Shown here one piece after another: positions 20,335 through 22,259 of a stretch of 45,935 nucleotides of DNA. The notes below the pieces were generated by a model, which was not told the origin of the DNA, searched no databases, and saw only the letters and a list, made by a program, of their open reading frames with translations. The stretch lies in contig CAMYMR010000007.1 of assembly GCA_947259285.1 (NCBI GenBank), forward strand, positions 1 through 45,935. The letters are read 5' to 3'. Position numbers and translations under genes: made by a program. Origin of the DNA: an uncultured Woeseiaceae bacterium (GTDB lineage: Bacteria; Pseudomonadota; Gammaproteobacteria; Steroidobacterales; Woeseiaceae). How positions within the stretch are numbered: position 1 is the stretch's first letter; each line of letters opens with the position of its first letter.

Positions 20335-20359
20335 CGGGCTGTCTCTATAGATTTAACAT

Positions 20360-20390
20360 AATATAAGAAGGCGGCGGTCAAACCTGTCAA
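20360..20390 (-). promoter_or_regulatory. Predicted priA promoter
   Basis: On the minus strand a perfect -35 TTGACA (20390-20385) is followed after 19 bp by TATATT (20365-20360), five of six matches to the -10. The predicted start near 20353 leaves about 19 nt of leader before the ATT proposed as the priA start. That is a normal spacing and supports the upstream start over one at GTG 20298. Confidence 0.5.
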
Positions 20391-20416
20391 CCGGACCTGT
20401 TGCTCACCCGTTAAAC

Positions 20417-21097
20417 ATGGCAGACACGTTAGATGACCTCGTCGTGGAGTCAAGAGATATGGAAGTCAGCACCACGGTTTTTGCGGTATCTTGTGCCGGC
20501 ACGCCATCAACAGGGACACAGGCACTGCAAAAAGAACGGCAACTTAACCAGTTCCTCGCTGAGGTGGAACGGCGTGCGCTGCGTATTGCCGAAATTGCGG
20601 TGCGGGATCGAGACGAGGCGCTGGATCTCGTTCAGGACGCGATGATCAAGCTGGCGCGCAATTACTCGGATCGTGCCGCCGAGGAGTGGACGCCGCTGTT
20701 CTATCGAATACTGCAAAACAGCGTGCGCGACTGGCACCGTCGGCAGGCCGTTCGCAATCGTGTGTTCGTTTGGTTCAAGCGCAAACCCGCCGACGACAAC
20801 GATTATGATGCAATCGCGGCCGCGCCGGACTCCGGCGGGCGAACGCCGGACGAGGAGCTGCAAAACAGCGAGGCGATGCGAAGCCTCGAAACGGCGGTGT
20901 ATGCGTTGCCCGCGAGACAGCGCGAAGCCTTTATGCTGCGCACATTCGAAGGTCTCAACGTTGCGGAGACCGCTGTGGCGATGGGCTGCAGCGAGGGCAG
21001 CGTAAAGACACACTACTCCCGGGCGATACACGCGCTGCGGGAAAAACTGGAAGAACACAGGCCCGGCGATTACGGGTCCGCGGATGGTGAACGATGA
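20417..21097 (+). CDS. ECF-like RNA polymerase sigma factor
   Basis: Sigma-70 family factor of the extracytoplasmic-function type. The 226-residue protein has region 2 (about 50-115) with EIAVRDRDEALDLVQDAMIKLA and WTPLFYRILQNSVRDWHRR, a linker of about 40 residues, and region 4 (about 155-215) with ALPARQREAFMLRTFEGL and the helix-turn-helix VAETAVAMGCSEGSVKTHYSR. ATG 20417 has no good ribosome site; ATG 20462 has GGAG upstream and would remove a non-conserved 15-residue start. It overlaps the DUF3619 gene by 4 bases (ATGA). The sigma-DUF3619-DUF3106 order is also known from betaproteobacteria. The regulon is unknown. It is divergent from priA. Confidence 0.92.
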   Translation: MADTLDDLVVESRDMEVSTTVFAVSCAGTPSTGTQALQKERQLNQFLAEVERRALRIAEIAVRDRDEALDLVQDAMIKLARNYSDRAAEEWTPLFYRILQNSVRDWHRRQAVRNRVFVWFKRKPADDNDYDAIAAAPDSGGRTPDEELQNSEAMRSLETAVYALPARQREAFMLRTFEGLNVAETAVAMGCSEGSVKTHYSRAIHALREKLEEHRPGDYGSADGER

Positions 21098-21450
21098 ACG
21101 AGCAAGACAAGGCATTCGAAAAGAAGGCAAAGGCTGCATTCGATGAGTCCGTTGGTGCATTGGATGCAGCAACGCTGTCGAAGCTGAATCGCAGCCGCCA
21201 TGAAGCGCTTGCCGAGTTGCGGCGTCCTAAACACCAGTGGTCCAACTGGATGCCTGCGACAGGTGTTGCGGCGGCAGTGCTGATCGCCGTGGTGTGGTTA
21301 CAAAGTCCTGGCGTCGTAACAGACCTGAACGGAACAACGGCGGCGACTGATATGGAGATTCTGCTCGGCGAGGACAGTATCGATATGCTGGAGGACCTGG
21401 AATTTTACAGCTGGCTCGACATGGCGGAAACGGATGGCGATGTCGGCTGA
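21094..21450 (+). CDS. DUF3619 family single-pass membrane protein, candidate anti-sigma
   Basis: A 118-residue protein with a charged cytoplasmic N-terminus (about 1-52), one transmembrane segment (about 54-70) and an acidic C-terminal tail exposed outside, ending in a stretch rich in Asp/Glu with LEDLEFYSWLDM near 104-112. Family function is not established. The topology, the size and the 4-base overlap with the sigma gene are those expected of a membrane anti-sigma factor, so that role is a reasonable inference. Its last 17 bases overlap the next small gene. Confidence 0.8.
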   Translation: MNEQDKAFEKKAKAAFDESVGALDAATLSKLNRSRHEALAELRRPKHQWSNWMPATGVAAAVLIAVVWLQSPGVVTDLNGTTAATDMEILLGEDSIDMLEDLEFYSWLDMAETDGDVG

Positions 21451-21676
21451 CCACAGACTGGGCGCCGTTGTCTTTGGGCTGCTGCTGTACGGCGGAGAGG
21501 TTCTGGCCGCGGACGAAGAACCGCCGGAAATCGAACTGCTGGAGTACCTCGGCATGTGGGAGGAATCGGATGAATACTGGCTGATCCTCAACGAAGCAGT
21601 AGCGGCCGAGAATGAAGAACGGATCGATCCCGTACCGCAAGGTGAAGAATCGATGGAGAAAGATGATGAAAGCTAA
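21434..21676 (+). CDS. Small acidic exported protein in sigma operon
   Basis: An 80-residue protein of unknown function. A hydrophobic segment (about 10-25) ending in VLAA looks like a cleavable signal peptide. The mature part of about 55 residues is strongly acidic and contains PEIELLEYLGMWEESDEYW (about 31-49). ATG 21440 is an alternative start two codons in. It overlaps the DUF3619 gene by 17 bases and the DUF3106 gene by 14, so it is embedded in the operon and very likely translated. Its acidity is the mirror of the Arg-rich DUF3106 product encoded next, which may be its partner. Confidence 0.75.
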   Translation: MAMSADHRLGAVVFGLLLYGGEVLAADEEPPEIELLEYLGMWEESDEYWLILNEAVAAENEERIDPVPQGEESMEKDDES

Positions 21677-22154
21677 CAACCTTGTTGCACGGACCGCGGT
21701 GGCTATCGCCGCATTACTGGTGGTCAGCTTAGCTAATGCCCAGGATGACGGAATTAGCTGGCATGAACTCAGTGATGGGCAGCGCGAGATTCTCAGCCAG
21801 CTGGAGAGCAGCTGGGACTCTCTTCCGGCGGAGCGCCAGCAGCGACTATCGAGGGGTGCGCAACGCTGGGATGCCATGTCGCGACAAGAGCGCCAGCAGG
21901 CGAGAGGCCGATTTCAATCGTGGCGCAAACTGTCCGATGAGCGGCGTGAACTGATTCGGGAACGTGCTCAGATCTTCAAGAATCTTTCTCCCGAAGAGCA
22001 GGACCGCATACGAAAGAACTACCGTAACTACCGGCAGATGAATCGGGAACGCCGAGAGCAGCTGAGAGATCGCTACAAAAGGATGACGCCGGACCAGCGG
22101 CAACGGCTGCGGGATCGTCTGACCCGAAGGCCGCGACCGGCTCCAAGAGATTGA
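21663..22154 (+). CDS. DUF3106 exported Arg-rich repeat protein
   Basis: From ATG 21663 (ATG 21666 is equivalent; GGAG lies just upstream) the product is 163 residues. A signal peptide ends near ALLVVSLANA (cleavage about residue 26). The mature protein is a series of 18-residue units: 36-53, 54-71, 72-89, 90-107 and 108-125, then two shorter ones (126-140, 141-156). Each starts with Leu/Met plus Ser/Pro/Thr/Asn, carries Glu/Asp, Gln and Arg, and has an aromatic residue at position 16 in the five full units (W, W, W, F, Y). It is highly basic and should be almost entirely helical in the periplasm. It is the last gene of the sigma operon and is followed by a strong terminator. The function is unknown. 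Confidence 0.85.
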   Translation: MMKANNLVARTAVAIAALLVVSLANAQDDGISWHELSDGQREILSQLESSWDSLPAERQQRLSRGAQRWDAMSRQERQQARGRFQSWRKLSDERRELIRERAQIFKNLSPEEQDRIRKNYRNYRQMNRERREQLRDRYKRMTPDQRQRLRDRLTRRPRPAPRD

Positions 22155-22176: not shown

Positions 22177-22206
22177 AAAGACCTCCGACGGGAGGTCTTT
22201 TCCTTT
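22177..22206 (+). terminator. Intrinsic terminator of the sigma operon
   Basis: AAAGACCTCC and GGAGGTCTTT form a perfect 10-bp stem around the tetraloop GACG, followed by a T-rich tract (TTCCTTT read on from the stem). It lies 22 bp after the DUF3106 stop and about 55 bp before pntA, so it separates the sigma module from the transhydrogenase genes. Confidence 0.93.
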
Positions 22207-22259
22207 GTGCCTGCAGATTGCCTTCGTTACACTGCCGCAGTCCAAATGGAGGCGCGAGA

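Follow-up and report, generated by a model that had tools for sequence, protein, structure and literature searches.

The stretch of DNA analyzed here, hereafter the window, comprises 45,935 nucleotides from an uncultured Woeseiaceae bacterium (contig CAMYMR010000007.1 of assembly GCA_947259285.1), a member of a group of abundant, uncultured bacteria of marine sediments. It contains a four-gene operon encoding a sigma factor of the extracytoplasmic function (ECF) type, a DUF3619-like membrane protein, a small acidic exported protein and an Arg-rich exported DUF3106 protein (Table 1). A first-pass annotation had described four overlapping genes closed by a strong terminator, and this layout was recovered in full: the four open reading frames (ORFs) overlap on the + strand exactly where they had been placed, with the terminator behind them. 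The frames thus stood, and three of the starts had to be moved. The sigma factor more probably begins at ATG 20459 than at ATG 20417, because the latter nearly abuts the conserved promoter, lying 4 nucleotides past the last base of its -10 element; a conserved GGAGTCAAG stretch precedes ATG 20459. The acidic ORF opens at 21434, and the start kept in relatives is ATG 21440, while the DUF3106 gene starts at ATG 21666, with a signal-peptide-like opening, rather than at 21612.

Table 1. Features of the operon, with positions in the window and the basis of each assignment.
Feature	Position	Strand	Basis
ECF-type promoter GTCAAC-N17-CGTTA	20386..20413 (-35 20386-20391, -10 20409-20413)	+	Site search, upstream alignment
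ECF sigma factor gene, revised start	20459..21097	+	NCBIfam PRK09047.1; start from promoter position and conservation
DUF3619-like single-pass membrane protein, probable anti-sigma factor	21094..21450	+	Pfam below cut-off, relatives match PF12279, alignments A2 and A5
DUF3619 outer-tail residues F104 / W107	21403-21405 / 21412-21414	+	Alignments A2 and A5
Small acidic exported protein, 78 residues from the conserved start	21440..21676	+	No family match; linkage to DUF3106; codon-position pattern
Conserved stretch IELLEYLGMW of the acidic protein (family approximately FLEFLG....D..W)	21530..21559	+	L39, G40, D46 and W49 invariant (n=13)
Exported Arg-rich DUF3106 protein	21666..22154	+	PF11304, 100.2 bits
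Intrinsic terminator, 10-pair stem, 4-base loop, T-rich tail	22177..22200	+	Sequence

The product of the first gene is virtually certain to be an ECF sigma factor: it scored 249.3 bits against NCBIfam PRK09047.1 (cut-off 173) and exceeded the cut-offs of both Sigma70_r2 (25.1 bits) and Sigma70_r4_2 (55 bits), with no region 3 among the ten Pfam families listed. A search of named genomes with this protein yielded 88 loci, the best 80 of which were used, and the nearest relatives among these 80 belong to the Woeseiaceae. Iterated profiles detected DUF3619 in 79 and DUF3106 in 78 of the 80 loci—the misses, L107 and L118, being contig ends. When the window was included and the threshold set at E <1e-5, the 81 operons comprised 80 with DUF3619, 78 with DUF3106 and 56 with a member of the acidic family, and the order sigma factor, DUF3619 and DUF3106 was identical in all 78 operons that contain both DUFs. 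This wide conservation and the gene order shared by gamma- and betaproteobacteria bear out the earlier proposal of a self-contained module. Among the 25 loci without an acidic gene, the contigs of L107 and L118 end too early, and the remaining 23, namely 22 betaproteobacterial or beta-like loci (including L117) and L104 of the Porticoccaceae, lack it. The record of L117 is titled Mycobacteriaceae and bears a sigma/DUF3619/DUF3106 operon of betaproteobacterial type; it is probably a mislabelled bin.

The betaproteobacterial operons thus resemble that of the window in their homologous sigma factor (44-52% identity), DUF3619 and DUF3106, encoded in the same order, and differ from it in lacking both the acidic gene (22 of 22 testable loci) and the sequence GTCAAC-N16/17-CGTT (0 of 23). 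Because none of the 22 testable loci has the gene, the acidic protein would not be needed for the core circuit in betaproteobacteria. In several of these operons, DUF3106 is followed by a membrane protein that we presume to be RDD-like. In another set of 370 gammaproteobacterial genomes, searched for both families, 107 had a DUF3106 match and 64 a match to the acidic family. For 60 of these 64 acidic hits, a DUF3106 gene follows on the same strand at a distance of no more than 700 bases. The first-pass annotation had held that its proposal would fall if most homologous operons lacked the acidic gene. In the class sampled this is not the case: we found an adjacent copy in 60 of the 107 gammaproteobacterial genomes with DUF3106, or in 60 of 81 when the count was restricted to the stronger DUF3106 matches (E <=1.4e-20), the other 21 showing no adjacent acidic match at the search sensitivity used. 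A plain search with the acidic protein of the window reached 49 of the 80 nearer relatives at E <=1. The gene is therefore a genuine, linked component of most operons in the gammaproteobacterial sample.

An alignment of the regions upstream of the sigma genes revealed a conserved TGTCAAC ... CGTTA pattern. Of the 81 operons (the 80 loci and the window; L044 starts inside the promoter), 51 have the sequence GTCAAC-N16/17-CGTT ahead of the sigma gene, with a spacer of 16 bases in 44 and of 17 in seven. Around it, conservation fades. The motif itself has an identity of 1.00 by selection, and pairwise identity in the 44 spacer-16 operons is 0.34 in the spacer, 0.29 in the 15 bases upstream and 0.33 in the 15 bases downstream—approximately the level expected by chance. 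The seven spacer-17 operons, which are close relatives, show higher values (0.54, 0.50 and 0.63, respectively). The window has a single match to the 11-base form GTCAAC-N16/17-CGTTA, where 0.02 would be expected, and a single match to the 10-base form GTCAAC-N16/17-CGTT, where 0.21 would be. The site, which we take to differ from the sigmaE consensus, has what reads as the layout of an autoregulated ECF promoter, and its presence in this place in 51 of the 81 operons makes it very probable that the sigma factor drives its own operon from this promoter. We infer that the same protein reads further GTCAAC-N16/17-CGTT sites. The promoter was found exclusively in operons with an acidic gene (51 of 56, versus 0 of 25 without), a co-occurrence that may reflect shared ancestry rather than function. 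A literature search for TGTCAAC together with sigma factors turned up nothing but unrelated titles.

The second gene product scored 18.6 bits against PF12279, below the gathering cut-off of 22.2, and is therefore called DUF3619-like. Among its relatives in alignment A2, 17 of 19 match PF12279 at E <=0.1 (best 2.5e-32), and a single iterated profile unites the gamma- and betaproteobacterial members. Residues L31, R35, A38 and F104 are invariant both in these 19 sequences and in the 67 of alignment A5, the invariance of F104 spanning gamma- to betaproteobacteria; W107 is almost invariant in the smaller set and not in the larger one, where some members carry F. According to the predicted topology, L31, R35 and A38 belong to cytoplasmic helices—AlphaFold2 predicts two at the N-terminus—and F104 and W107 to an outer tail. 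This tail has a net charge of -13 in the window, with a median of -12 in 52 of 56 gammaproteobacterial and of -4 in 18 of 23 betaproteobacterial operons, the four and five operons that do not fit the tail pattern being left out of the respective medians. A role for the protein as an anti-sigma factor, as placed by the first-pass annotation, is in keeping with its position and its predicted topology, and we consider it likely on these grounds. No convincing sequence relative was found among solved structures, the profile from A5 listing no CnrY chain at E <=10.

The DUF3106 protein of the window exceeded the PF11304 cut-off of 24.3 bits by a wide margin, and fell below those of Metal_resist (14.8 bits, cut-off 29.2) and LTXXQ (12 bits, cut-off 24.3); no RseB family appeared for it in the Pfam and NCBIfam listing at E <=1, and no convincing sequence relative in the Protein Data Bank. 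Its mature form has a net charge of +13, which is also the median of the DUF3106 region in 55 operons. A full-text search by name, subscription papers excepted, found no published function for either DUF3619 or DUF3106. In gammaproteobacteria, the two genes lie in one frame with a single intervening stop at L121, L126, L094 and L089, where the linker is the out-of-frame acidic gene and Arg-rich.

The relationship between the two proteins was further explored using AlphaFold2 with a natural pair from a member of the Comamonadaceae (L114), in which DUF3619 and DUF3106 share one frame and the single stop was read through. This fusion was aligned with 54 further rows, and the DUF3619 rows of the same loci served for a control with DUF3619 alone. 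The two-protein model had a mean predicted local distance difference test score (pLDDT) of 80.5 and a predicted template-modeling score of 0.60. In the presence of DUF3106, residues 91-100, 101-110 and 111-120 of DUF3619 reached pLDDT values of 90, 94 and 95, versus 83, 69 and 67 for DUF3619 alone, while blocks outside 91-120 shifted by at most 6 between the runs. In these models it takes DUF3106 in the chain to give the tail a well-defined structure, which fits the expectation for a tail packed on DUF3106, and makes DUF3106 a reasonably probable partner of the tail. Foldseek gave no match to the two-protein model at E <=0.001. In a VIA-align fold comparison the best Z was 4.6, and five of the six best rows span the DUF3619 tail into DUF3106, four of these being HMG boxes or HMG-box proteins; Z values of 4.6 or less are too weak for an assignment.

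The small acidic protein matched no Pfam or NCBIfam family, and 13 family members likewise had no Pfam match. Comparison of six sequences (15 pairs) gave 260, 187 and 426 substitutions at codon positions 1, 2 and 3, respectively, a pattern by which the gene looks protein-coding, even though most differing codons (415 of 633) alter the residue. The mature protein carries a net charge of -19 in the window, and the median across 56 gammaproteobacterial operons is also -19, with a range from -25 to +1 and the weakest charges among L079-L094. The pairing of opposite charges on which the first-pass annotation had built therefore applies to the window (-19 and -13 versus +13) and not to some weakly charged family members. 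Its further suggestion, that the acidic protein and the DUF3619 tail share a motif, found no support as homology: only an acidic-aromatic character is common to the two, and hhalign detected no homology between them (probability 0.9% over three columns). No in-frame pair of acidic protein and DUF3106 occurred in 179 loci and the window (stored strand scanned). Binding of the acidic protein to DUF3106 is a tentative proposal, with the balance slightly against it. In Pleionea (L091, 4880-5599), the slot of the acidic gene is occupied by a 239-residue low-complexity exported protein that keeps only a LELLTFLAEF core.

To delineate the genes that the sigma factor might control, exact sites were counted in the genome of the window (eight, versus five for a reversed control) and in 60 relatives (75 in 42 genomes, versus 41 in 27). 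Such counts alone are not decisive, and the recurrence of genes behind the sites carries the case. Three groups recurred: exported DUF3106-like proteins with MSDEER..RERWESMS repeats (group A, orthologues in 22 of the 60 relatives), glycine-zipper lipoproteins (group C, 32 of 60) and lipoproteins with a DUF4382-like part (group D, 38 of 60). Two group A proteins were scanned against PF11304, giving 23.5 bits for L186 (cut-off 24.3) and no match for L227; group C reached 14 bits against Gly-zipper (cut-off 28.9), its name being a description, and group D 24.7 bits against DUF4382 (cut-off 25.0). Upstream regions were scored with a weight matrix built from the 51 self promoters at a threshold of >=14 bits, the 99.9% point of 1500 shuffled 280-nucleotide pieces being 12.5 bits; for pieces taken unshuffled from the fetched loci, true sites included, the 95% and 98% points were 7.3 and 20.4 bits. 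A site above threshold was present at 19 of 23 group A loci (18 of 21 distinct genes), 23 of 30 fetched group C loci and all 29 testable group D loci. Leaving out the discovery genomes, the figures were 14 of 17 loci (14 of 16 genes), 16 of 23 and 27 of 27. For group A, 24 loci were fetched and 23 located (L329 was not), with L323/L330 and L325/L331 representing one gene each; for group C, 30 of 32 rows were fetched, and for group D 30 of 39, L359 being dropped for want of upstream DNA. Flanks and spacers in the three groups are little conserved (0.26-0.43). In the same genome, sites precede such genes at C5 (group D), C7 (the sigma gene), C24 (group C), C27 (a small lipoprotein-like ORF, L183) and C64 (group A), and those at C44, C47 and C67 lie inside ORFs. 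Groups A, C and D probably constitute an envelope regulon, as predicted from these sites.

A fourth set, group B, was discarded. It comprises a Spy/CpxP-like exported protein at 20 loci, with a site just upstream in all 20. In the genome of the window this site is the coding end of the preceding gene, and an alignment of the 20 loci shows that end conserved throughout, the spacer (0.64) and flanks (0.66-0.80) being unlike those of groups A, C and D. Group B belongs to another ECF operon. One such operon was observed in the same genome (L294 565-1908, G000:C67), encoding a sigma-like protein, a short protein of 120 residues placed where an anti-sigma factor would be expected, and an exported Spy/CpxP-like protein without a Pfam match—names given by eye, for a layout that recalls CnrHYX.

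Taken together, we favor, with moderate confidence, an autoregulated cell-envelope ECF sigma circuit with a DUF3619 brake and a DUF3106 partner. This reading was reached by computation, from gene order, conservation, promoter footprint and site recurrence, and the docking of the tail on DUF3106 is a prediction; from these data we infer that DUF3619 acts as an anti-sigma factor, which way the signal runs and what the acidic protein does. In the proposed mechanism, the sigma factor would be held by DUF3619 through short cytoplasmic helices, linked by one membrane span to the conserved periplasmic tail. The exported, Arg-rich and all-helical DUF3106 would bind this tail, and thereby stabilize the anti-sigma factor or report the state of the envelope. 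Were DUF3106 drawn away, the sigma factor would be freed and would transcribe its own operon, along with the DUF3106-like repeat proteins and the glycine-zipper and DUF4382-like lipoproteins, from GTCAAC-N16/17-CGTT sites, until fresh DUF3106 restored the brake. In gammaproteobacteria, the acidic exported protein would be an added partner, most likely of DUF3106, tuning this step.

Several points weigh against this reading. Its support is wholly computational, and genomes sampled at the genus level are not independent. Among the 81 operons, the promoter site was not found at the 23 loci that are betaproteobacterial or beta-like, at the two of the Porticoccaceae, or at L085, L088, L092 and L094. 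The docking stems from one betaproteobacterial pair in one chain, judged by pLDDT, and this pair has F, not W, at the place of W107. As for the regulon, the eight sites versus five in the same genome prove little alone, group C has no 14-bit site at 7 of 30 loci, some of the matches in group A score poorly, at E up to 6e-4, and are repetitive, and group B at first looked like a target. Many sites also fall in mechanical ORFs of >=300 nucleotides on the same or the other strand (12 and 11 of 51 self promoters, 4 and 6 of 17 in group A, 3 and 5 of 20 in group C, 7 and 6 of 29 in group D), and that at C64 lies within such ORFs on both strands; since sites of every group overlap mechanical ORFs, coding overlap is possible site by site. 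Moreover, the DUF3106-like regulon proteins fit an effector role equally well, and another ECF sigma factor of similar specificity could serve the sites.

Alternative explanations were considered. DUF3106 and the acidic protein could be outputs rather than sensors—a chaperone-like pair or a binder of an envelope polymer—with the sigma factor freed otherwise, for example by proteolysis of DUF3619. Effectors are often encoded beside their own sigma factor, and the predicted regulon holds further exported Arg-rich repeat proteins resembling DUF3106, with a site at 19 of 23 loci; however, the predicted docking and the invariant F104 suggest that DUF3106 acts on the anti-sigma factor too, and we regard this alternative as unlikely, if worth keeping in view. 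A different sigma factor might instead read the promoter site, making the sigma gene of the window a target and not the source. Promoter specificities of ECF groups can overlap, and the genome has at least one further ECF operon (G000:C67); yet the site precedes window-type sigma genes in 51 of 81 operons with mostly unconserved surroundings, autoregulation is the usual pattern in ECF operons, and this explanation strikes us as very improbable.

The titration switch put forward by the first-pass annotation, in which the acidic protein mimics the DUF3619 tail, competes with it for DUF3106 and sets the threshold of the response, draws on the opposite charges in the window, on the near-confinement of the acidic gene to the slot before DUF3106 (60 of 64 hits) and on the conserved acidic-aromatic stretches of both proteins. 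Set against these are the absence of detectable homology between the acidic protein and DUF3619, the weak charge of several acidic family members and the betaproteobacterial loci without the gene. Competition between acidic protein and tail is thus doubtful as judged from the sequences, and so is the switch as a whole, as well as the notion that gammaproteobacteria added a periplasmic titrator capturing DUF3106 as the anti-sigma tail does. If such a titrator did exist, release of the sigma factor would be set by the ratio of two exported proteins of the same operon, and also by DUF3106 and its regulon-encoded relatives being drawn off by a stressed envelope.

By analogy, the operon with its DUF3619 brake and DUF3106 partner would work most like the CnrX-CnrY and RseB-RseA systems, with the acidic protein as the unusual part. 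In CnrYXH of Cupriavidus metallidurans, the cytoplasmic part of CnrY embraces the sigma factor with two helices, and CnrY is presumed to be switched when CnrX binds metal (PMC4598750). The operon would share with CnrYXH (sigma factor CnrH, anti-sigma factor CnrY, sensor CnrX) the combination of an ECF sigma factor, a short anti-sigma factor and a separate periplasmic protein, and its DUF3619 is likewise predicted to have two cytoplasmic helices. It differs in that the DUF3619 and DUF3106 profiles match no CnrY or CnrX chain among solved structures, no metal genes were seen among the predicted target groups, and an extra small acidic protein is present. In Escherichia coli, periplasmic RseB binds the outer part of the membrane-anchored anti-sigma factor RseA (PMC8103513). 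An envelope ECF sigma factor, a membrane-anchored anti-sigma factor and a periplasmic partner would be common to both systems; unlike RseB, DUF3106 is small and all-helical and has no RseB family match. Two further ECF systems, SbrI/SbrR and PA3285 of Pseudomonas, turned up in the literature and may or may not be related in sequence to the operon.

Beyond the earlier annotation, our analysis adds an ECF-type promoter, probable autoregulation and predicted targets. The operon occurs widely among gamma- and betaproteobacteria and is likely to control a response of the cell envelope that has so far gone undescribed; with a promoter, a target list and a specific predicted tail-DUF3106 contact, a set of DUFs becomes a testable envelope signaling system, and the Woeseiaceae gain a predicted stress regulon.

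Two observations concern the neighboring genes. In many relatives, the interval separating the sigma promoter from the divergent priA-like gene holds a second conserved stretch, approximately ATTT.ACATAAT (window 20350-20365), which is perhaps the -10 region of the priA-like gene on the opposite strand. Finally, a small genome from the same genus carries an exact GTCAAC-N16-CGTTA site (G011:C89, L226 position 2001) 78 bases ahead of a gene homologous to the one found next after the operon in the window, at 22218, which we take to be transhydrogenase-like.

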